Below are positions 1-8,322 of a stretch of DNA of 8,675 nucleotides, one piece after another. The stretch is from Deltaproteobacteria bacterium (GTDB lineage: Bacteria > Desulfobacterota > Desulfobacteria > C00003060 > C00003106): contig JAFDAE010000114.1 in NCBI GenBank assembly GCA_019314005.1, positions 1 to 8,675 of the forward strand, given 5' to 3'. Numbering within the stretch: the first letter of the stretch is position 1; each line of letters starts with the position of its first letter. The notes under the pieces are model-generated. The model ran no database searches, was not told the origin of the DNA, and saw nothing but the letters and a program-made list of their open reading frames with translations. Both the position numbers and the translations under genes were made by a program.

Positions 1-1095
1 CCTCCCATCGCCCTTCACAACCAATGGTACATTCCCACCACATACTTCCAGTTGCACTGTATCCGACACAACGGCATTCACCGCATCGAACAGGTAACTG
101 TGATTAAGTGATATCTCAAACGCATCATTGCTATCTTCGGAGCTATCTTCGGCGCTACCTTCGGTGATTTCCACCTCGTCCGATACAGATCCGTTCAGAG
201 TATCCGACTTAAGAATAAGGTGATTGTTATCCCTTGTAATGGACATTCTCCCATCTGCAGCGTTCCGCGCGATTACCTTTATGCGCGATAAGGAACGCAA
301 TAATTGTTTTTTACTTATTCCCATAGCGATAATCTCTCTCTCGTCATTGCCTTTTACTACTCTGTGGTAGTCAGGAAATTGACCATCAATCAGTTGTGCT
401 ATCAGAATTGTGTCGTACGTTTTAAAGATTGCCTTGTCTCCGGCAATGCCAATCTGAATTGACTTGTCACCGTCGTCGGATATTCTGGCGATCTCCTTCA
501 GTGTCTTTCTGGGAATGATAACCCCGCCGTCATTATCTATAGCGGAAGCTTTTTCGCAATATCCAGCCTGACTGATTGCCAGCCTACGACCGTTTGTCCC
601 GATAAGCCTCAAGAAAGACTCGTTTTTTTCAAAACAAACACCCTCCAGATTAGGCCTGCAATCGTCTGTCCCGGCCGCAAATACGGTTTGCCTTATAATC
701 TCTTTTAAATCATCAGATTTCATAGAGACAAAATCCGTTTCCTCTAATGGGAATTCAGGATATTCATCCACGGGAATGGAGTGAAACTTAGACGAAGCGT
801 TCCCACAAATGATTTTGTCGTCTTTGATAACAACCACATCATCACCAAGCAGCTCAACATATTCGAGAAGCTTTTGTCCTGCGAGAGCAACGCTTCCCTC
901 TTGAACTATCTCTGCCTCAACAGTAACACGTATGTTAACGGAGAGGTCTGTAGCGGTCAAAGACACACCATTGCTTTTTGTCTCAACCAGAACATAGTGC
1001 GCAGCTCTAAAATGCGTTCTCCGTCCCAGACTGACAACTCCTGATATTTTCTTTAATGCCTTCACTAAAATATCTCTCTTGATTTTAACTTTCAT
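1..1095 (-). CDS. dnaN: DNA polymerase III beta subunit (sliding clamp), 3'-truncated by window edge
   Basis: This is the ring-shaped processivity clamp that holds a replicative polymerase on DNA. The reading frame is open from the ATG at 1095 to base 1, giving 365 codons. Bacterial clamps have about 366-376 residues, so only about the last ten (the usual MPMR-type tail) lie outside the window. Family landmarks are an N-terminal TDLSVNI segment near residues 48-54 and IDGQFPDYHRVV near residues 234-245, plus the third-domain segment FEISLNHSYLFDAVNAV. An acidic Ser/Glu/Asp loop at residues 311-322 is built from a small DNA tandem repeat. The start is fixed by AAGGAGG five bases upstream, but that site lies inside a 9-bp hairpin. 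It is last in a minus-strand run after traT. An element-borne clamp would be additional to the host's; the host copy is assumed, not seen. Family identification is confident; which polymerase it serves is unknown. Confidence 0.93.
   Translation of the reverse strand, partial: MKVKIKRDILVKALKKISGVVSLGRRTHFRAAHYVLVETKSNGVSLTATDLSVNIRVTVEAEIVQEGSVALAGQKLLEYVELLGDDVVVIKDDKIICGNASSKFHSIPVDEYPEFPLEETDFVSMKSDDLKEIIRQTVFAAGTDDCRPNLEGVCFEKNESFLRLIGTNGRRLAISQAGYCEKASAIDNDGGVIIPRKTLKEIARISDDGDKSIQIGIAGDKAIFKTYDTILIAQLIDGQFPDYHRVVKGNDEREIIAMGISKKQLLRSLSRIKVIARNAADGRMSITRDNNHLILKSDTLNGSVSDEVEITEGSAEDSSEDSNDAFEISLNHSYLFDAVNAVVSDTVQLEVCGGNVPLVVKGDGR
130..165. repeat. Three tandem 12-bp repeats inside dnaN
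   Basis: Three adjacent copies of a unit close to GCTATCTTCGGA occur in frame. They encode the four-residue pattern [T/A/S]-E-[G/D]-S three times in an acidic loop of the third clamp domain. Because the unit is 12 bp, gain or loss of a copy would keep the frame. Confidence 0.85.
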
Positions 1096-1125
1096 TAGAT
1101 CCTCCTTGTCACTTGTACAAGGAGG
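1096..1125 (-). promoter_or_regulatory. Hairpin sequestering the dnaN Shine-Dalgarno site
   Basis: In the minus-strand RNA, CCUCCUUGU (1125-1117) and ACAAGGAGG (1109-1101) form a perfect 9-bp stem with a 7-nt loop. The 3' arm contains the whole AAGGAGG site, five bases before the dnaN ATG at 1095. In this fold the ribosome site is closed. The 5' arm extends to 1128 as CCCCCUCC, which is exactly complementary to GGAGGGGG (1165-1158) in the hairpin element just upstream. An alternative open state is therefore possible. The pairings are seen directly; regulation is inferred. Confidence 0.7.
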
Positions 1126-1135
1126 GGGTATTCAT

Positions 1136-1171
1136 TTCCCCAGAGGGGAATAAAATGCCCCCTCCGGGGAG
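1136..1171 (-). promoter_or_regulatory. Tandem triloop-hairpin element, copy A (upstream of dnaN)
   Basis: On the minus strand two short GC-rich hairpins stand side by side. Hairpin I is CCCC-GGA-GGGG (1169-1158, with one further G) and hairpin II is UUCCCC-UCU-GGGGAA (1150-1136), joined by an A/U-rich linker. No U-tract follows, so it is not an ordinary terminator. It fills the traT-dnaN gap and its last G lies 43 nt before the dnaN start. Copies B, C and D are at 4073-4106, 6321-6356 and 6529-6561. Confidence 0.7.
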
Positions 1172-1187
1172 TTTTCATATCGGTTGT

Positions 1188-1955
1188 CTACAGTATCCCG
1201 GCAATTGCCTTTCCAATAGATACCTGCAACCTGGGTAAGGCCTCCTCAAAGTCAAGATTCACTTTGTTAGCCTCTGAGACAACCCTTGTTCTGAACCGTT
1301 TGAAGTTCTCTGTTGTTTTGACCACCTGCTTGATTTTTGTCTGTGATCCCTGTGACAGGTCAGAACCAATCTCCTGTTCCACAACCGCTTTTGTCCTCTC
1401 TGAGAGCTGGACGTCTGTGACTATGGAAAAGACAACGTTCTTAACAAGAGCGTTTGCTACATGCTCCGTCAAACCACCGGCAAGAGCGCCAATGCCACCG
1501 CCAACAAGGTATCCGCTGGGGGATCTACTCATACTGTGACCCATCCCGGCGCCAACCAACCCGCCAACCAACCCGCCGTAACCGCCTGCAAGTGCCTGTT
1601 GAAGATCTACAGGTTTGGCTTTGCCGACAAACAGCACGTTAGCCTGAAGCAGGTAGTGTGCTTTATCAGGATCACTCTCTATGCGATAACCTTTTGAGAT
1701 TATCTCACTGGAAATGACGCTTTTAATGTCAATGTCTTTGTCGGACGTATTCTTGATTTGCAGAAAAACCGTTTTAAGTTCCGGTTTAACCGGATCAAGA
1801 AAAATCGTGTCCGACATTTTTGACCTTACCTCCAACTCCCTGTGCTCAATGGCCGTAGTCATTGCGGCACATCCTGAAAGCATGAATATCAGCATGAGCA
1901 AAAGCGCTGCTATCCACGTTCGTGTTCCTGCATCTAACTCCCTTATGTCCTTCAT
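1188..1955 (-). CDS. traT: TraT-family surface-exclusion outer-membrane lipoprotein
   Basis: TraT proteins sit in the outer membrane of cells carrying conjugative plasmids, block redundant mating and can confer serum (complement) resistance. This 255-residue protein has a lipoprotein signal: basic N-terminus, hydrophobic stretch at 14-26, then lipobox LSGC with acceptor Cys29. The order of recognisable family segments follows F-plasmid TraT: LEVRSKMSDTIFLDP, TVFLQIKNTSDKDI, SDPDKAHYLLQANVL, two glycine-rich hydrophobic segments (about 122-140 and 146-163), TDVQLSERTKA, TRVVSEANKVNL and the terminal IGKAIAGIL. The start is chosen for AAGGAGGT with nine-base spacing; that site overlaps the stop of the upstream gene, suggesting translational coupling. 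The first glycine-rich segment contains a duplicated 12-bp unit (1552-1575) encoding repeated GGLV. No other transfer gene is visible, so it may act as exclusion or surface protection without a local transfer operon. Confidence 0.93.
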   Translation of the reverse strand: MKDIRELDAGTRTWIAALLLMLIFMLSGCAAMTTAIEHRELEVRSKMSDTIFLDPVKPELKTVFLQIKNTSDKDIDIKSVISSEIISKGYRIESDPDKAHYLLQANVLFVGKAKPVDLQQALAGGYGGLVGGLVGAGMGHSMSRSPSGYLVGGGIGALAGGLTEHVANALVKNVVFSIVTDVQLSERTKAVVEQEIGSDLSQGSQTKIKQVVKTTENFKRFRTRVVSEANKVNLDFEEALPRLQVSIGKAIAGIL

Positions 1956-1970
1956 GTTGCTTGTACCTCC

Positions 1971-2234
1971 TTAATGTGTAATGTTTTTCGGACCGACTTT
2001 TTTCGGCACCGGTTTGATCCATACTTTTATCTTTTTATCCCACGCGAAACCCGCTTTCTTGAGATCACCTCTAAACTTAAAAGTGTTTCTACGGGCAACA
2101 AATCCTCCCAACGGTTCATTGTAGGCTATGTCTGTCTGCAGAATCACAATCCAGTCGAGATCATCAGGCGTGGGAATGTAACTTTGTTTTTGGGCATTTC
2201 GTGCCCTTAACACCTGTTCAATCACCTCGTTCAT
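1971..2234 (-). CDS. 87-residue unknown protein with C-terminal DLKKAGF..W module
   Basis: Function unknown. The ATG at 2234 is preferred over an upstream GTG at 2270 because GGAAGGAGG lies five bases before it, whereas the GTG has no SD and lies in the terminator. The N-terminal half is a charged region with DDLDWIVILQTDIAYNEP. Residues 50-75 carry NTFKFRGDLKKAGFAWDK followed by KVWIKPV, a short module of the kind found in small DUF5710-like proteins. The same module ends the annealing-like protein at 3151-3837, so the two may share a binding partner. It begins just after an intrinsic terminator and its stop overlaps the traT SD, so it is probably co-transcribed with traT. The tail is basic (PKKVGPK). 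No catalytic motif is apparent. Confidence 0.8.
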   Translation of the reverse strand: MNEVIEQVLRARNAQKQSYIPTPDDLDWIVILQTDIAYNEPLGGFVARRNTFKFRGDLKKAGFAWDKKIKVWIKPVPKKVGPKNITH

Positions 2235-2249
2235 TAAAACCTCCTTCCA

Positions 2250-2298
2250 AGGTATAAAAAAAGAAGCCACGTAATACTAAGGCTTCCCCTCTATACCT
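2250..2298 (-). terminator. Intrinsic terminator between ssb and the 87-residue gene, with clasping outer repeat
   Basis: In minus-strand RNA, GAAGCC (2286-2281) pairs with GGCUUC (2268-2263) around a 12-nt loop, followed directly by seven U (2262-2256). The structure is flanked by AGGUAUA (2298-2292) and UAUACCU (2256-2250), which are perfectly complementary and would enclose the hairpin and the U-tract. The start of the 87-residue gene is only about 20 bases further on. It may end the ssb operon or attenuate the 87-residue/traT/dnaN genes. Confidence 0.75.
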
Positions 2299-2336
2299 GC
2301 AATAAATGTAGTAATGTCTGATTTGGGTGCAATACC

Positions 2337-2750
2337 TCAGAAGGGTATGTCATCCTCATGGATTGGCTGATTGTCGCCAGGGATTGGCTGGTTATTGCCG
2401 GAAGTCTTGCCAGGCTTGTTGTTTTCACCCGTAGACCCCAGCATGACCATGGTCTTGGCCACGATCTCGGTAACTTGTCTCCTATTGCCTTCCTTGTCGT
2501 CCCACGACCTGGTTTGCAATTTTCCCTCAATAAGGACCAATTTGCCCTTAGTCAAATATTCACCGCAGACTTCCGCAAGTCTTTCCCATGTGACAATCTT
2601 GTGCCATTCGGTTTTTTCTTGCTTTTCGCCATCTTTTTTCCAGGTTTCCGATGTGGCAAGACTAAATGTTGCCACGGGTGTACCAGACTGGGTGTACTTG
2701 ACTTCGGGATCAGATCCTAATCTTCCAACTAATGTGACTTTGTTATACAT
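2337..2750 (-). CDS. ssb: Single-stranded DNA-binding protein SSB
   Basis: SSB coats single-stranded DNA during replication and recombination and recruits partners through its C-terminal tip. The 137-residue product has the OB-fold start [20 protein letters not shown], the [13 protein letters not shown] strand, [19 protein letters not shown], the [16 protein letters not shown] strand and [10 protein letters not shown] short Gly/Asn/Pro linker follows, with two related copies of a NQPI segment, and then the canonical acidic tip EDDIPF. The start at 2750 fits the family N-terminus; its SD (AAAGGGG) is modest, and the gene overlaps the end of the 129-residue gene by 8 bases, so coupled translation is likely. 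It is the last gene before the terminator at 2250-2298. It probably works with the annealing-like protein, the nuclease and the clamp. Confidence 0.96.
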
Positions 2751-3132
2751 AATTTGCCCCTTTCTTTTGTGCCAGGCTGTCGAGCAGCTCGGTGTCATGG
2801 TTATAATGTCCCCATTGTCTGTTTATCGTTAGGGATACATCATCACGGTTTTTATTTATTGAGTTCGCGGGGTTGTTCAGGGTAAAGGTACAAGTCTTCT
2901 GTACCCCGCCATGGCTGTTGTTGTGATTGAGATATACAGAGCATTTCAGTACATCTCGTTCCATTAAAACAGCAGCTACAGATCCTCCCTGGTCGGCATT
3001 CGCCGATATCCGGATTTTCTTATCCGATAAGGGAAAGATCGCAATGCCTGCATTCAACAGATCACCCAACATAGCGTCGTCATCACAACCGAACTCAACT
3101 TCTGCTTCAATTCCAAGTAATCCCTGCTTCAT
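2743..3132 (-). CDS. 129-residue unknown protein in the ssb operon
   Basis: I do not recognise this protein. The start at 3132 is supported by AGGTGG seven bases upstream, and the gene sits 18 bases after the annealing-like gene and overlaps ssb by 8, so it belongs to the same transcription unit. The N-terminus ([26 protein letters not shown]) is acidic and probably alpha/beta. A region near residues 37-66 ([27 protein letters not shown]) looks like mixed strand and helix. The second half is rich in Asn, His and Lys and lacks hydrophobic segments. There is no signal peptide, membrane helix or known catalytic motif. Its position between an annealing-like protein and SSB suggests a DNA-metabolism accessory, but that is guilt by association only. 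Confidence 0.8.
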
Positions 3133-3150
3133 GTTTATTCCACCTCTGAT

Positions 3151-3837
3151 TTATTGCATGGCGTAAACCCACTTTTTCAGTGGCTGCGAAAACGTAAATC
3201 CAGCGTCTTTCAGGTCCTGCCGGTTTTTGTACACGCTTCCTTCGGCTATAATATGGCTGTTCTCACGTTTGTATTTCACACCGTCCAGCTTGGGCAGCCC
3301 ATCAGGTAATCCGGATGGCCAGCTCTGCTCACTGTCTTTACCTGTGGGGGGAGAAGATTTATCTCCTGCCGCAGATGCCTTTTTGTCCGGGATGGACCGT
3401 TCCGGGGACTCGGCGCCCTGCGTGGCGTCCTCTTTCTGCAGGTTCACCTCAACCTTTTTGAGATTTTTCTGCTGTTGAAGAGCTGTCAGCAGTTCGTCAG
3501 CGGAACAAAATTCCCCGCCTCCGAAGCCCGCTGTGAACAGAACTCTACCCAACGCTGACGTCTCACAGTTTTCCACTGCCGATGTCGCGTTGATAACTCC
3601 ATCCCCTCTGATTTCTTCGGCGTGGCCCATTGCGACGATTTTTCCGTTCGGGTCTATGATATGTGCCTCGCAACGCACTGCATTGCCGTCATAATCCAGA
3701 CCTGTCACAACCTGCCATCCCGAGCTGATCGGATATTTTTCACGAAACTTGCGCAACCTTTCCGCAACAGTTTCGTAAGTCTTCTGACCCTTCACAGCTC
3801 CTGTCATCTCATCTTTTTTCTCAATTGTTACTGGCAT
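3151..3837 (-). CDS. Putative phage-type single-strand annealing / recombination protein with DLKDAGF..W C-terminal module
   Basis: The 228-residue protein has an N-terminal domain (about 1-118) with TYETVAERLRKFREKYP, then GHAEEIRG at 71-78 and INATSAVENCETSALGR at 82-98, then FGGGEFCSADEL. The pattern GHA-E, N-TSA-ENCETSA-GR and a final SADE is familiar from phage recombination-region proteins thought to be Rad52-like annealing proteins (Sak3-type). This is my recollection of a family signature, not a search. A low-complexity Pro/Ser/Lys/Glu linker spans about 120-190. Residues 199-226 repeat the module of the 87-residue protein (GSVYKNRQDLKDAGFTFSQP then KKWVYAM). The start has TGAGGAG six bases upstream. 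Location between a Cas4-like nuclease and ssb fits an exonuclease-annealing-SSB recombination set. The family call is moderate, the function inferred. Confidence 0.65.
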   Translation of the reverse strand: MPVTIEKKDEMTGAVKGQKTYETVAERLRKFREKYPISSGWQVVTGLDYDGNAVRCEAHIIDPNGKIVAMGHAEEIRGDGVINATSAVENCETSALGRVLFTAGFGGGEFCSADELLTALQQQKNLKKVEVNLQKEDATQGAESPERSIPDKKASAAGDKSSPPTGKDSEQSWPSGLPDGLPKLDGVKYKRENSHIIAEGSVYKNRQDLKDAGFTFSQPLKKWVYAMQ

Positions 3838-3852
3838 ATTATTCTCCTCAAG

Positions 3853-4029
3853 TTATATTCCGGGTTCAAGACAGAACTCTTCGACCCACATAAAATCCAC
3901 GTCTCTTATCTGTTCCCGGGCGATGACAGCATCGACTCTTTCCTTGATAATTTGCGAGGAATCCGCCTCAACCAGTATCTCTTCGAACGGTTCACCGTTC
4001 CGGAACAATGTTGCTGTATAAAACTGCAT
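3853..4029 (-). CDS. 58-residue unknown protein
   Basis: Unknown function. A longer in-frame reading to 4212 exists, but the ATG at 4029 is chosen because AAGGAGGTG stands four bases before it and the longer version would run through the nuclease gene and hairpin element B. The product starts MQFYTATLFRNGEPFEEILVE, has a helical middle (SQIIKERVDAVIAREQ) and ends in an acidic, aromatic stretch (DVDFMWVEEFCLEPGI). It is acidic overall, with one Cys and no membrane segment. It lies between the nuclease and the annealing-like gene with a 15-base gap to the latter, consistent with one operon. Small acidic proteins in such operons can be inhibitors or adaptors, but nothing in the sequence shows this. 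Confidence 0.78.
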   Translation of the reverse strand: MQFYTATLFRNGEPFEEILVEADSSQIIKERVDAVIAREQIRDVDFMWVEEFCLEPGI

Positions 4030-4072
4030 GATCCACCTCCTTTCTTTTAAATTAATGCGAAGAAGGCAGATA

Positions 4073-4106
4073 TCCCCCAGAGGGGAAATTGCCTCCCCCA
4101 CAGGGT
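4073..4106 (-). promoter_or_regulatory. Tandem triloop-hairpin element, copy B
   Basis: In minus-strand RNA, hairpin I is CCC-UGU-GGG (4105-4097) with further G residues after it, then a linker GGCAAUUU, then hairpin II CCCC-UCU-GGGG (4085-4075). Hairpin II matches copy A exactly. It lies between the nuclease stop (4124) and the 58-residue gene, 45-46 nt before that start codon. Hairpin I is the weakest of the four copies (three pairs, loop UGU instead of GGA). Confidence 0.6.
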
Positions 4107-4123
4107 TGCTTTTAAGGTTTTTA

Positions 4124-5083
4124 TCAGCTGACTTTGATGTATTTTGTTGTCTGCTTGCCCCCGTATCTCTCCCAGGCTTCAGGCATAGACTCTTTAAGTC
4201 CGTGCACATCAATCTTGGAGGAACGACGAGTTATTTCTTTGATTAGGGATTCATCTACCTTGATTGCCCTCGTGCCATTACCATTACAAGCATTATCAAT
4301 GGCTTCGGCAAAGATGACAGAGATCCTTTTCATGGCCGTCTCTGCTTCTTTTTTGGCTGTTCTCATTGTGAGATATTCCTCCAGTTCTTCATAGAGCGGA
4401 ACTTCAGGAACCTTCTCGTTGATAGAAAACGCAGGGCAACCCGGCCGGTGTTGACACCATGCGCACAGAGGCCCATCTTCCGTGGGTATCTCCGCGGCAT
4501 CAGTTTCAAGATTTAATGCACTCCATATCTTTTCAGCTTTATCTACCAGCAACCCGAAAGTAGCTGCATCAGGCTGATAGCCCTGAAAAACCTTTACCTG
4601 CCCGTCACCCACACTAACAGCAACCACAGCGCCCTCGATGTCTGTACTCATGTTATTGAGAGCTATGATACCCATCTGGTAGTGGAGTTGCCTTATCCAA
4701 CCGATATGCGGTTGAGAAGGCATACCATCAACACTTTTGCATTCCAGTACCAGAAGGTTTCCCTTGTCCCTGTTAAGAACAAAATCGGGATGTACTTTCA
4801 GGTGATGTGCATTGGGATGACTGTATTCAGGTTGGTAATTATATTTGATGTTCTCGGCATCAAGAGCATATTGAACAATATTTTCTGTTATATGCCCTCT
4901 CATGAACCTCACCAATGTGGCAAGGCTGAACCTGTCGGGATGTCTCCGTGAAAGTACTGCCTTGCGGATACATCCACTAACGTCCGAAGCTCCAATGTAT
5001 TCGGTTCGGTCTCCCAGGTCGTCAGCCGATTTTGTCGCACTGTGCTTTCTTATCCCTTCTTCTATTATCTTTTTGATTTCCAT
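4124..5083 (-). CDS. RecB/Cas4-like PD-(D/E)XK nuclease with four-cysteine iron-sulfur motif
   Basis: The 319-residue protein has the layout of iron-sulfur RecB-family nucleases (Cas4, AddB C-terminus, phage exonucleases). Cys38 (GASDVSGCIRKAVLSRR) sits before the nuclease core, and a C-x2-C-x5-C cluster at Cys207, Cys210 and Cys216 follows it. Such four cysteines usually hold a 4Fe-4S cluster. The core shows GHITENIVQYAL around His64, Asp100 in VHPDFVL, Glu114 and Lys116 in LVLECKS (the D-ExK metal site) and RQLHYQMG at 131-138 (QhxxY-type motif IV). The helical C-terminus (about 228-319) is an extra domain with no match I recognise. The start has AAAGGAG five bases upstream. It leads the minus-strand operon; no good promoter is visible in the 85-bp gap to the divergent gene. 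It probably resects DNA ends for the annealing-like protein. No cas1/cas2 or CRISPR is nearby, so a CRISPR role is not supported. Confidence 0.85.
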   Translation of the reverse strand: MEIKKIIEEGIRKHSATKSADDLGDRTEYIGASDVSGCIRKAVLSRRHPDRFSLATLVRFMRGHITENIVQYALDAENIKYNYQPEYSHPNAHHLKVHPDFVLNRDKGNLLVLECKSVDGMPSQPHIGWIRQLHYQMGIIALNNMSTDIEGAVVAVSVGDGQVKVFQGYQPDAATFGLLVDKAEKIWSALNLETDAAEIPTEDGPLCAWCQHRPGCPAFSINEKVPEVPLYEELEEYLTMRTAKKEAETAMKRISVIFAEAIDNACNGNGTRAIKVDESLIKEITRRSSKIDVHGLKESMPEAWERYGGKQTTKYIKVS

Positions 5084-5111
5084 TGAATCTCCTTTAACTT
5101 GTAGAAATAGC

Positions 5112-5140
5112 TTGACTTTCTTGTTTGTTCGTGATAGATT
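5112..5140 (+). promoter_or_regulatory. Sigma-70-type promoter for the plus-strand 69-residue gene
   Basis: TTGACT (5112-5117), a 17-bp spacer and TAGATT (5135-5140) give a near-consensus promoter pointing plus. The expected transcription start is about 5147, 22 bases before the GTG start at 5169. It lies between two divergent genes. Confidence 0.72.
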
Positions 5141-5143
5141 AAA

Positions 5144-5153
5144 CAGAACTTTT
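5144..5153 (+). promoter_or_regulatory. CAGAACTTTT motif at the predicted transcription start
   Basis: The 10-mer CAGAACTTTT covers the predicted start of the 5112-5140 promoter. The same 10-mer occurs twice upstream of the promoter at 7765-7794. A shared operator is possible; no protein partner is known. Confidence 0.35.
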
Positions 5154-5168
5154 AGAAGGAGGAAACAG

Positions 5169-5378
5169 GTGGGATTAAAAATAGTACAAGGTGGGTTTCA
5201 AGAGGGTGTATGGCAACATGATCGAGAAGCTTATACCGATGAAGATATTGAATCCTTCAACGAGTTTCTCAGAGCCGTCGCTAAACATCGCCCCCAGGCC
5301 GCCGAGGTAATATGGGATATACCACCCAAGAACAAACAGCCTGACCCAACCTTGGTAAAAAAAATAACCCATCCTTAA
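5169..5378 (+). CDS. 69-residue unknown protein, the only plus-strand gene
   Basis: Unknown function. The GTG start at 5169 is chosen because AAGGAGG lies six bases upstream and a clear promoter (5112-5140) would start transcription 22 bases before it. The product reads GLKIVQGGFQEGVWQHDREA, then an acidic helix (YTDEDIESFNEFLRAVAKHR), then a Pro/Lys-rich tail (IPPKNKQPDPTLVKK). It is soluble, without Cys and without a recognisable DNA-binding motif. It is transcribed divergently from the nuclease operon and convergently with the gene at 5375-5587; the two stop codons overlap in the palindrome TTAA (5375-5378). A separately promoted, oppositely oriented small gene beside a replication operon often encodes a regulator, but this is only positional. 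A minus-strand frame of 65 residues here lacks an SD and is not favoured. Confidence 0.8.
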   Translation: MGLKIVQGGFQEGVWQHDREAYTDEDIESFNEFLRAVAKHRPQAAEVIWDIPPKNKQPDPTLVKKITHP

Positions 5379-5587
5379 CTCTCCCTCCTTACCACAACCT
5401 TATAGTTTTCGTTCTTCATGACAGATACCGAAATAACATAACCATATTGAATGGAACATTCCGGTACTTCTCCGAATATCTTTATTACCTGCTCTCTTGT
5501 TAGCTCCTTTGACTTAACCTGACAGGGTCTTATGTTAATTCCACCCTGCCTGTCAGCAAGAACATTCGCGAAGTTTCTTAAATTCAT
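5375..5587 (-). CDS. 70-residue unknown protein
   Basis: Function unknown. The ATG at 5587 has AAGGAG seven bases upstream. The sequence begins MNLRNFANVLADRQGGINIR, contains a Lys/Glu-rich helix (SKELTREQVIKIFGEVPEC) and ends with beta-rich sequence (YGYVISVSVMKNENYKVVVRRES). It has two cysteines, no membrane segment and a basic C-terminus. It lies directly behind a terminator hairpin (5610-5656), with its SD just after the U-tract, so its expression may depend on read-through. Its stop codon overlaps that of the convergent plus-strand gene, so the two mRNAs are complementary at their 3' ends if they run past the stops. No family is recognised. Confidence 0.75.
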   Translation of the reverse strand: MNLRNFANVLADRQGGINIRPCQVKSKELTREQVIKIFGEVPECSIQYGYVISVSVMKNENYKVVVRRES

Positions 5588-5609
5588 TGGTAATCTCCTT
5601 ATTCTGCAT

Positions 5610-5656
5610 AAAAAAAGCGGTACCAGGGCACGCTTGAATGTGCCTGGATTTACCGC
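5610..5656 (-). terminator. Terminator/leader hairpin ahead of the 70-residue gene
   Basis: In minus-strand RNA, GCGGUA (5656-5651) pairs with UACCGC (5622-5617). Inside, after an AAU bulge, CCAGG pairs with CCUGG and CAC with GUG around an 8-nt loop. Seven U follow (5616-5610). The 5' strand GCGGUAAAUCC and the 3' run CCGC-U7-AUGCA recur in the structure at 5954-6040, so the two are related. It is a convincing terminator sitting only 23 bases before the next start codon. Confidence 0.8.
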
Positions 5657-5684
5657 TTTTACCGTAACTTAAAAGTGTTTGGGC

Positions 5685-5918
5685 TTACATCTGCGACCCT
5701 TGGGCTGCAAAAATAAACCATTTCGCACATGTCATTCTTCGTCCTGTTCGCGGATCATAATCAAGCTGATCTGCGAAGGTCCTCCAACCTTTTAGGGCAA
5801 AACAACGCACATCACCGTTTCCAACGTATTCTTTCACCTTAACAGCATAAACTTCATCAAGGCCAAAGACGTCAGGAGCAACAGTCGATGGGTCGAGAAA
5901 ACACCACTTGTTTTTCAT
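5685..5918 (-). CDS. 77-residue unknown protein
   Basis: Function unknown. Three in-frame starts are close: GTG 5927, ATG 5921 and ATG 5918. The SD-like GAGGTG covers the GTG itself, so an ATG is more likely; 5918 has six-base spacing and is used here. The product has NKWCFLDPSTVAPDVFGLDEVYAV and EYVGNGDVRCFALKGWRTFADQLDYDP, then a basic turn (RTGRRMTCAKW) and a short hydrophobic end. It is Trp/Phe rich with three Cys and looks like a small beta-rich domain. It is flanked on both sides by related terminator hairpins (5954-6040 upstream, 5610-5656 downstream), so it is a one-gene unit. No homologue family is recognised. Confidence 0.75.
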   Translation of the reverse strand: MKNKWCFLDPSTVAPDVFGLDEVYAVKVKEYVGNGDVRCFALKGWRTFADQLDYDPRTGRRMTCAKWFIFAAQGSQM

Positions 5919-5953
5919 CATTTTCACCTCAATAATTCTTGTTTGATTTGCAT

Positions 5954-6040
5954 AAAAAAAGCGGGCTCTGGAGTCGGCATATTTAAAATATGCCTATGAT
6001 GTCCTTATTGGACGTCACTGTTCCTCCAGGATTTACCCGC
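5954..6040 (-). terminator. Branched (three-way) leader structure ending in a U-tract
   Basis: In minus-strand RNA a closing stem GCGGG/CCCGC (6040-6036 with 5965-5961) and a second stem CUGGAG/CUCCAG (6029-6024 with 5973-5968) enclose two hairpins. One is an 8-bp arm GGCAUAUU/AAUAUGCC (5994-5976). The other is UGACGUCC/GGACAUCA (6017-5997), which has one C-A mismatch in this strand but a U-G wobble in the plus strand. Seven U follow (5960-5954). The outer sequence matches the hairpin at 5610-5656, as if a simple terminator had gained a branched insert. It lies 36 bases before the 77-residue gene. Confidence 0.72.
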
Positions 6041-6182
6041 TTTTTCTCGCTGTTCGGGAGAAAGACTTTGCTCCTGTCAGTCCTGAAACATACTGTCTCT
6101 ACTGACAGGAATGATTATTGAGGCTCTGTCCTCACTTACCAGTAACCTTCTAATCTTTAACCTTTCTCCTTTCCTTATCTTT
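6041..6182. other. 142-bp gap with 9-bp inverted repeat and an orphan Shine-Dalgarno site
   Basis: No gene is supported here. CCTGTCAGT (6073-6081) and ACTGACAGG (6101-6109) form a perfect 9-bp inverted repeat around 19 bases, with no U-tract. On the minus strand a good SD (AAAGGAG, 6172-6166) just after the 31-residue gene is not followed by ATG, GTG or TTG. The only nearby frame would begin with ATT at 6154 and encode 25 residues, ending at 6077 inside the inverted repeat. Confidence 0.5.
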
Positions 6183-6278
6183 TCATAACACAATGATTCC
6201 CAGGGCCACTAATCCCCATGCTGCCAAACTAAGTGCAAAACCATAGATAAACTCTGTTCGTTTAATTGTGATGTACAC
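6183..6278 (-). CDS. 31-residue micro membrane peptide
   Basis: A GTG at 6278 follows AAAGGAG with seven-base spacing and opens a 31-codon frame ending at TGA (6183). The N-terminus is polar and charged (YITIKRTEF), then residues 11-31 form one unbroken hydrophobic segment containing AAWGLVALG, long enough to cross a membrane once. The Lys/Arg before the segment predicts an N-terminus on the cytoplasmic side. It resembles in form the very small single-pass subunits of membrane complexes, but no partner is visible. It shares an FA-x(3-5)-WG-x-V pattern with the 22-residue peptide at 6420-6488, and both follow the same hairpin element, suggesting a duplicated unit. A longer frame across 6209-6427 has no SD and is rejected. 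Confidence 0.6.
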   Translation of the reverse strand: MYITIKRTEFIYGFALSLAAWGLVALGIIVL

Positions 6279-6296
6279 AGTAAGTCTCCTTTCCGG

Positions 6297-6312
6297 TTTT
6301 TCCCGGGAAAAA
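6297..6312. repeat. 16-bp perfect palindrome before the 31-residue gene
   Basis: TTTTTCCCGGGAAAAA is a perfect 16-bp palindrome between hairpin element C and the SD of the 31-residue gene. As RNA it could form a six-pair stem with a CCGG loop; as DNA it could be a dimer-binding site. Confidence 0.5.
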
Positions 6313-6320
6313 GGCGCAGC

Positions 6321-6356
6321 TCTCCCTGAGGAAGAATCGTGCCTCCCTCCGGGAGT
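6321..6356 (-). promoter_or_regulatory. Tandem triloop-hairpin element, copy C
   Basis: In minus-strand RNA, hairpin I is CUCCC-GGA-GGGAG (6355-6343) and hairpin II is CUUCC-UCA-GGGAG (6334-6322). The linker GCACGAU resembles that of the other copies. Base changes in hairpin II relative to copies A and B still pair (U-A and U-G replacing C-G), as expected if structure is conserved. It ends 44 nt before the GTG of the 31-residue peptide. Confidence 0.68.
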
Positions 6357-6419
6357 GTTAAATAACTTGTTTTGGGGTTTTTAAATATGGTGGGATTTTG
6401 TTCTGACTTTGATTTTGAC

Positions 6420-6488
6420 TCACACAAAAATTAAAGTCACAATTACCGTTCCCCATGTTACGATGGTGATAGTCGCAAACGCTTTCAT
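6420..6488 (-). CDS. 22-residue micro membrane peptide
   Basis: The ATG at 6488 is preceded by AAAGGAGG with five-base spacing, one of the best ribosome sites in the window, and opens a frame of only 22 codons ending at TGA (6420). Apart from Met-Lys at the start the whole peptide is hydrophobic (FATITIVTWGTVIVTLIF), enough for a single membrane pass. It is therefore either a micro membrane protein or a leader peptide. It lies about 140 bases upstream of the 31-residue peptide, to which it is similar (FA-x(3-5)-WG-x-V), and follows hairpin element D. The small size alone makes coding uncertain, but SD strength, composition and the matching second unit support it. The overlapping 78-residue frame (6594-6358) has no SD and is rejected. 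Confidence 0.58.
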   Translation of the reverse strand: MKAFATITIVTWGTVIVTLIFV

Positions 6489-6528
6489 GGCTGCCTCCTT
6501 TCTGTTGATTACAGAGAGAAAACAGTTG

Positions 6529-6561
6529 TCCCCCAGGGGGGATAATGTTCCCCTCCGGGGT
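6529..6561 (-). promoter_or_regulatory. Tandem triloop-hairpin element, copy D
   Basis: In minus-strand RNA, hairpin I is CCCC-GGA-GGGG (6560-6550) and hairpin II is a run of six C, one U and five G (6541-6530) that can form CCCC-CCU-GGGG. The linker AACAUUAU joins them. It ends 42 nt before the ATG of the 22-residue peptide. The sequence just upstream (CAAAACAC then UUUAAC) resembles that before copy C, so C and D with their genes may be a duplication. Confidence 0.68.
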
Positions 6562-6596
6562 TAAAGTGTTTTGTTGGGATAACGAATTTACCATAT

Positions 6597-7854: not shown

Positions 7855-8322
7855 CTATCCTGCCGCTTTGACTGCTTTTGACGCCTTTGCTTTAGTCACC
7901 TTTTCCACGTCGATGACGTTAGTCTCGGTTGTTTCTTCGGTTTTCTCCCCGGTTTTCTCTTCGGGAACATCCTCTCCCGTTTTGAAAGCATGAAAGCGGC
8001 GGGGAGGCCTGAAGGGTAAGCCGCTAAGCTCTGTTACCCTCTCTGCAAATCTGTACATGTCAACGAGCATATTGTGGAACTCGTTGATTACTCCGCCAAC
8101 AAGCTCATTGGTGTATTTAGGACTGGTTCCCATATTATCCCTTAACCGCTTGAGGGCCTTGTCTATCGGAGGCTGCATATCGAGCATTGCTTTCGTGTCA
8201 TTCGTTCTGACAAGGGTTACCCTGGAATCTCTTTCCTGTGCCAGTGATACTTTCCGATCCGTTATCTCCCGAACAACCTCTTCCCTGGATTTTTTCTTTA
8301 TTTCTGTATTTTTCTCTGCCAT
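7855..8322 (-). CDS. 155-residue charged unknown protein
   Basis: I do not recognise a family. The ATG at 8322 is preferred to an upstream start at 8361 because AAAGGAG lies eight bases before it. The N-terminus (about 1-35) is Lys/Arg/Glu rich and likely helical or coiled coil (NTEIKKKSREEVVREITDRK). The middle (about 45-110) is the probable folded part: MLDMQPPIDKALKRLRDNMG, then NELVGGVINEFHNMLVDMYRF and LSGLPFRPPRRFHAF. The tail (about 112-155) is low complexity: acidic Glu/Thr repeats followed by Lys/Ala-rich VTKAKASKAVKAAG, like tails of basic nucleic-acid-binding proteins. There are no Cys residues, no signal peptide and no membrane helix. It follows the membrane gene by 39 bases, probably in one transcript, and the transcript would end at the 7691-7720 hairpin. 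Confidence 0.8.
   Translation of the reverse strand: MAEKNTEIKKKSREEVVREITDRKVSLAQERDSRVTLVRTNDTKAMLDMQPPIDKALKRLRDNMGTSPKYTNELVGGVINEFHNMLVDMYRFAERVTELSGLPFRPPRRFHAFKTGEDVPEEKTGEKTEETTETNVIDVEKVTKAKASKAVKAAG

Follow-up and report, generated by a model that had tools for sequence, protein, structure and literature searches.

In the translational attenuators of the erm and cat genes, four segments pair either as 1:2 and 3:4 or as 2:3, and the Shine-Dalgarno sequence (SD) lies in segment 4. In the MS2 maturation-gene leader, a transient structure permits translation until the stable fold forms, and in the toxin mRNAs of hok and aapA3 transcription sets the order of metastable helices and anti-SD segments, according to the passages of PMC6733600 drawn on here. 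The STAXI motif (RF01728) is a repeated pseudoknot, listed for Enterobacteriales in the relevant part of PMC2864571. The present analysis concerns an RNA element that occurs four times on the minus strand of an 8,675-nucleotide contig (JAFDAE010000114.1, assembly GCA_019314005.1; the whole contig is called the window below) from a Deltaproteobacteria bacterium of the Desulfobacterota. The element consists of six segments, a-b-c-d-e-f, with the SD inside f. Covariation and predicted folding suggest that it is probably a cis-acting two-state translational switch, repeated before many genes of one operon. Most plausibly the element works by masking and unmasking the SD, which an earlier, sequence-only reading of this DNA had not seen.

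The leader element and its covarying helices

The sequence-only reading had reported four minus-strand sites (1136-1171, 4073-4106, 6321-6356 and 6529-6561; copies A, B, C and D), each drawn as two triloop hairpins in tandem. All four are present at these positions, and they are real copies of one and the same element. A covariance model, R2, finds exactly these four sites in the window at E<=0.1 (E 2.6e-15 to 6.9e-9), the four copies being among its 53 training rows. Three of the four, all but copy C, were recovered by a strict scan for a pair of G+C-rich triloop hairpins; on both strands the same scan gave 9 register combinations, against a mean of 0.24 and a maximum of 2 in 100 dinucleotide shuffles. 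The RNAfold z-scores of leaders A, B, C and D are -4.9, -1.9, -2.9 and -4.6. The distance from the site end to the start codon, put earlier at 42-46 nucleotides (nt), is 40, 43, 42 and 40 nt for A, B, C and D by hand count. The idea that unrelated genes share a structured RNA signal at a near-fixed position before their start codons is supported. The sites are indeed not ordinary terminators: none of the six runs of at least six T on the window minus strand follows an element. A terminator consensus scan lists 6542-6529 and 1171-1158, and their tails have no run of six T.

The tandem triloops are not the minimum-energy fold of the leaders. In A, B and D that fold comprises one long hairpin, in which the two halves pair with each other, and a further one in which the SD is buried; in copy C the first segment is paired with the region 3' of the second hairpin. 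The SD hairpin is part of the element, yet it lies beyond the four site intervals given above. GGA loops are a CsrA-type protein-binding motif. Neither the GGA nor the UCU loops are conserved across the family, and GGA as a conserved motif of this type was rejected for that reason; CsrA itself was not searched for. A protein ligand or a stabilising role, both proposed earlier, may exist, but nothing in the present data points to either.

Many further copies were found in related plasmids. A scan of relatives for paired C-rich hairpins 5' of an SD gave additional sites in the plasmids pSD and pPRO1 and in other genomes. Scanned for the full architecture, 689,248 bases gave 62 matches, and a single shuffle of these bases gave 8 (33 against 3 at a score of at least 26). 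Twenty-four aligned copies have a clear consensus, for which RNAalifold, unguided, returned b:e as the single helix. Two models were used: R1, which is sequence-only, and R2, which includes b:e and leaves out e:f. In 668,629 bases of related loci R1 gave 107 matches (E<=0.5, partial and antisense matches included), of which 64 are full length and include SD and start codon, the latter being ATG in 61. An 85% similarity filter reduced the 64 copies to 53, and segment splitting to 52.

Pairing was assessed by a swap test, in which the duplex energy of a copy's own segments is compared with that of segments exchanged between copies. Covariation is present, as had been anticipated, but for the helices b:e (z -13.1) and e:f (z -13.7; 52 copies). 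In the same set b:c is moderate (z -5.1), a:e (z -4.2) and a:d (z -2.3) are weaker, and the remaining combinations range from -2.0 (c:f) to 1.7; the a:c value, a numerical artefact of pairless duplexes, was not used. The first triloop hairpin, a:b, has no covariation (z 0.2), on which the tandem triloop was rejected as the functional fold, and for the second, c:d, it is marginal only (z -1.7; 85 of 2000 permutations were as good). When the first block (a, b and the linker) is taken as a whole, the 53 non-redundant copies pair it with their own e at -22.3 against -15.2 after swapping, and e with their own f at -17.4 against -12.4, with 0 of 2000 permutations reaching these values in either case. 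The first block also pairs better with its own c/d (z -7.8), and there is no such gain for the first block with f (z 1.4), c/d with e (z -0.2) or c/d with f (z -1.4). The 32 non-seed copies gave z -12.8 for the first block with e and z -9.8 for e:f. For e:f, which R2 does not model, copies outside the training set gave z -6.0 (n=27, the distinct ones among 31 R2 rows) and z -8.9 (n=38, those of 48 exact matches on seven further plasmids whose segments were long enough for the test).

In alignment A6, double-change cells number 86 for b:e against 43.6 in shuffles, and 33 against 16.4 for e:f (0 of 500 shuffles in both). The two helices overlap in most of e and are therefore mutually exclusive. 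Each has private pairs, in that e columns 90-93 covary with the loop 5' of b and columns 72-73 with the end of f, as expected of competing strands with separate toeholds. Helix b:e has 79 G.U cells against 27 A.C cells, an excess that fits sense-strand RNA; e:f, with 45 and 39, is uninformative on the strand. As regards a ligand-binding core of the riboswitch kind, the conserved alignment positions are the pairing segments and the SD, and linkers and loops are variable. In primary sequence, b, e and f differ greatly from copy to copy.

Predicted folding and the proposed switch

At full length, RNAfold favours e:f in 46 of the 53 copies and b:e in 7. At least five b:e pairs are predicted in 52 of 53 copies when the RNA is cut before the SD, in 7 at full length, and in 43 when the SD is forced open. 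If e is exchanged for that of another copy, b:e is formed by an average of 23.9 of the 53.

In the proposed closed state, e would pair with f and hide the SD, with b held by c and a by d. In the open state b would capture e, the c:d hairpin would sit inside the b:e loop, and the SD would be free. Segments b and f would compete for e from opposite ends, e overhanging f on one side and b on the other. Before the SD is transcribed b:e would be preferred, and the nascent leader would present an open SD; the finished leader would relax to e:f and shut, unless ribosomes hold the SD. We infer that translation would be allowed mainly on nascent RNA or with a ribosome-occupied SD, the trigger being likewise inferred. 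A two-state SD switch is very probable. That the nascent-RNA window is the actual control is a tentative suggestion, somewhat short of an even chance. Rather doubtful is the further step to independent, self-timed translation windows across the plasmid operon for recombination and maintenance, in which many genes would each have an RNA clock that admits ribosomes only during transcription or occupancy. If true, output would track new transcription, such as that soon after conjugative entry, and be silent on old RNA, and in several proteobacterial classes as well as in the Desulfobacterota it would be structure more than sequence that keeps such self-timed windows conserved.

Placement, range and alternative explanations

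On pSD and pPRO1, both typed MPF_F, 9 of 10 and 10 of 10 operon-strand R1 matches, respectively, lie within 10 nt of an annotated start. All R2 matches on these two plasmids (E<=0.1) fall in two stretches, L014 and L015, whose genes include RecE-like, MoxR-like, DUF3150, VWA and RadC genes; the six other stretches (245,899 bases) have zero matches at this threshold. With R1, pSD has one weak partial match outside the operon stretch (E 0.18). The BuS5 plasmid carries two good R2 matches, before a DUF932 gene and a JAB-domain gene, and a weak one (E 0.09), and all three end on annotated starts. In the phylum sample of 395 genomes, R1 found matches in 7 and R2 in 15 at E<=1e-4.

Relatives of DUF3150 are present in 1123 of the 72,556 plasmid records, and 218 of them cover most of the query. 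Ten such plasmids were examined (pSD, pPRO1, one from Geoalkalibacter, six proteobacterial, one from Vibrio), nine of which have element matches; the Allochromatium plasmid has zero at E<=1. The family is present on plasmids of Alpha-, Beta- and Gammaproteobacteria. The Geoalkalibacter and six proteobacterial plasmids, which are the seven further plasmids mentioned above, gave 67 R2 matches, 61 on the operon strand, and 48 of these 61 end exactly on an annotated start codon. Because R2 itself ends in SD and ATG, the fair comparison is with how many of all SD-preceded ATGs on the same plasmids are annotated starts (113 of 401, 28%), a fairer yardstick than the chance per random position (0.00086). 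On the Vibrio plasmid all eight matches end on annotated starts, the weakest two at E 0.22 and 0.32; the last of the eight is 25 nt long and has no element-like fold. Azonexus has three matches (E 0.003 to 0.2), each on an annotated start. The operon order in these plasmids, with variations, is ssb, bet or recT, exonuclease, AAA ATPase, DUF3150, VWA and in some radC, an operon akin to SXT/R391 and IncC elements.

Copies directly behind terminator-like T runs are a recurrent arrangement (L044 near 15997, L045 near 17240, L014 near 8792, L006 near 9764). Among other leads, the blastn relatives in Agrobacterium and Desulfovibrio were rejected with zero R1 matches at E<=5, as were the exact-pattern matches in viral contigs L001-L005, which looked like chance, and viral contigs L084-L101, with only 4 partial matches at two places. 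At 8200-8310 of viral contig L084, several TGTCTCCCC...GGGGAGACA hairpins stand in succession.

Several points weigh against a two-state switch. Part of the seed set was picked by scans that required these very helices. Two of five A6 shuffle measures are unremarkable for e:f (183 and 83 of 500), as is one for b:e (45 of 500). The swing is weaker outside the training set, with b:e in 34, 11 and 27 of 39 copies (cut, full length, SD forced open), in a set found by a model including b:e, with 9 of 48 copies skipped and a cut-off of 4 pairs. Window copy D is without b:e when cut before the SD, the 7 copies noted above prefer b:e even at full length, and the RNAfold predictions describe equilibrium thermodynamics, not kinetics. 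On the seven plasmids, 19 of 27 matches at E<=0.001 lie on annotated starts, which is not above the weaker matches.

The same switch might be driven by the upstream ribosome, which on terminating would cover a and free b, whereupon b would take e and the SD would open, as in erm-type attenuators; if true, this would couple neighbouring genes. Such coupling fits many of the copies. A previous open reading frame (ORF) of at least 45 codons is found for 52 of 53 copies and usually stops near the element, with a median gap of 21 nt. With a blocked, the mean predicted SD opening is 0.34 instead of 0.20, and 12 rather than 5 of the 53 copies exceed 0.5; the control, with b blocked, gives a mean of 0.15 and 0 of 53. 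The effect of blocking a is, however, only partial. The gaps are at least 60 nt in 14 of 52 copies and span 0 to 299 nt in the 48 from the Geoalkalibacter and proteobacterial plasmids; five copies, among them copy D of the window, sit by eye behind a terminator-like T run and not a gene end. As a universal trigger such coupling was rejected on the long gaps and the T-run-preceded copies, and as the drive of the switch we consider it unlikely. Nor is it likely that the switch is set in trans by a chaperone or RNA-binding protein of the plasmid or the host. One architecture across unrelated genes of one operon does suggest a common signal, but b, e and f diverge so widely in sequence that a protein would need to recognise shape, and a comparison of gene content and a Pfam scan of ten proteins gave no obvious candidate, other RNA-binding families not being searched. 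A plasmid NusG/RfaH-like factor was rejected, since pSD, pPRO1 and the BuS5 plasmid have no NusG-family match.

The SD hairpin could also be all that matters, e:f acting as a static limiter of translation and b:e being a by-product of an SD-like b. Helix e:f is the predicted favoured state in most copies, and it covaries; b:e covaries just as strongly, though, and also outside the overlap with e:f (columns 90-93), and with a foreign e it forms in only 23.9 of the 53 copies on average; we hold a static limiter to be improbable. A signal at the DNA level is very improbable. It would consist of protein-binding palindromes or of single-stranded DNA promoters of the leading region, which are Frpo-like; SSB and recombination genes enter early in conjugation, and the halves of the element are near-palindromic, also yielding weak antisense matches. 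Yet full copies are oriented with the gene up to SD and start codon, the seven-plasmid matches lie mostly on the operon strand (61 of 67), covariation extends to the SD, and the G.U excess of b:e is on the sense strand. The two-state SD switch, acting in cis, remains our preferred reading.

The window operon and described systems

On the minus strand of the window lie dnaN and genes for a TraT homologue, SSB, a RecE-like nuclease and an NYN-domain protein, besides several small genes. Relatives of the RecE-like protein occur on six plasmids (Desulfosarcina, Geobacter, Pelobacter, Campylobacter, Nitrosophilus), and we infer that the window operon is of plasmid nature. At megablast sensitivity, plasmids and phages yielded no close DNA relatives of the window. 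Viral contigs gave no relative in single-protein scans and two distant partial ones, L008 and L009, in an alignment scan. Most homologues of the 58-residue and RecE-like proteins are on contigs outside the sequences analysed. Positions of the four leaders are collected in Table 1.

Table 1. Leaders A to D and their segments in the window, with the evidence for each
Feature	Positions	Strand	Evidence
Copy A, whole leader before dnaN (start codon 1095-1093)	1093..1172	-	R1 and R2 matches; fold
Copy A, segment b	1153..1165	-	Pairs with e, duplex -20.1 kcal/mol
Copy A, segment e	1117..1133	-	1133-1121 with b; 1125-1117 with f
Copy A, segment f, SD AAGGAGG	1101..1109	-	9-bp e:f hairpin, minimum-energy fold
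Copy B, whole leader before 58-residue gene (start 4029-4027)	4027..4109	-	R2 66.2 bits
Copy B, segment b	4090..4102	-	13 contiguous pairs with e, -20.5 kcal/mol
Copy B, segment e	4056..4071	-	4068-4056 with b; 4071-4060 with f
Copy B, segment f including SD	4031..4042	-	12 pairs with e, -15.1 kcal/mol
Copy C, whole leader before 31-residue membrane peptide gene (GTG 6278-6276)	6276..6359	-	R2 48.2 bits
Copy C, segment b	6338..6354	-	Pairs with e, -23.7 kcal/mol; b:e preferred even at full length
Copy C, segment e	6301..6318	-	6313-6303 with f
Copy C, segment f including SD	6286..6296	-	e:f -12.2 kcal/mol
Copy D, whole leader before second micro membrane peptide gene (ATG 6488-6486)	6486..6565	-	R2 57.8 bits
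Copy D, segment b	6546..6557	-	Possible e pairing, -13.2 kcal/mol; b:e not favoured even when cut before SD
Copy D, segment e	6511..6525	-	Fold and duplex energies
Copy D, segment f including SD	6491..6505	-	14 pairs with e, minimum-energy fold

The dnaN gene (1-1095) is a sliding clamp copy on an apparent mobile element and itself stands behind one leader, copy A. Each of three terminator-like T runs on the minus strand (6040-5950, 5660-5600 and 2300-2255) has an SD and start codon no more than 45 nt downstream, which leaves little space for a promoter, and two of the three sites have GCGG(G)TAAATCC and GCTTTTTTTATGCA in common; they look like attenuators or antitermination sites. At 7795-7699 on the same strand, promoter-like hexamers TTGACA and TATTAA, seen by eye and absent from the consensus scan list, are followed by a terminator-like hairpin immediately 5' of the NYN-domain gene.

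The element is not described in the relevant passages of PMC2864571, PMC3403914, PMC6733600 and PMC3118119, and its description was not found in the open-licence literature searched, most subscription papers lying outside it. In Rfam 15, the window and 14 loci gave no matching family and no STAXI; the matches above threshold were group II introns alone, in two relatives, and below it there was one microRNA match (E 0.41).

With the erm/cat attenuators the element has in common the four-segment logic with the SD in the last segment, and covariation and folding alone identify helices that exclude each other, of which one masks the SD. It differs in the extra c:d hairpin in between and in being repeated before many genes of one operon. 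No erm-type leader peptide was noticed by eye, no dedicated search being made; an upstream ORF ends close to the element in most copies, not all. As in the MS2 leader, so far as the passages cited at the outset describe it, the predicted early state would be translatable before the stable fold; MS2, however, is a phage with a single site, and the early helix of the element, b:e, is backed by covariation. Transcription-ordered metastable helices and anti-SD segments are shared with hok and aapA3, but in those mRNAs, on the same partial account, the transient structures help keep translation off, whereas the early structure of the element would leave the SD open. A transient structure that precedes the downstream partner, as in MS2 and hok, is found here as a thermodynamic prediction, with window copy D as the exception. 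STAXI, to judge from the part of its description cited above, is likewise structured, repeated and close to ssb and other genes for DNA handling, but it is a pseudoknot and has no match in the Rfam-scanned loci. The logic of exclusive helices around the SD has precedents in attenuators and metastable leaders; what appears to be new is the family, with its reiteration before many operon genes and its spread across plasmids. This large, apparently undescribed RNA family in an operon marked by DUF3150 would, if it switches as predicted, provide a conjugative plasmid with gene-by-gene control of recombination and DNA-handling proteins in one operon with no dedicated regulator for each, and would be a natural counterpart, in many natural variants, of engineered strand-displacement switches.

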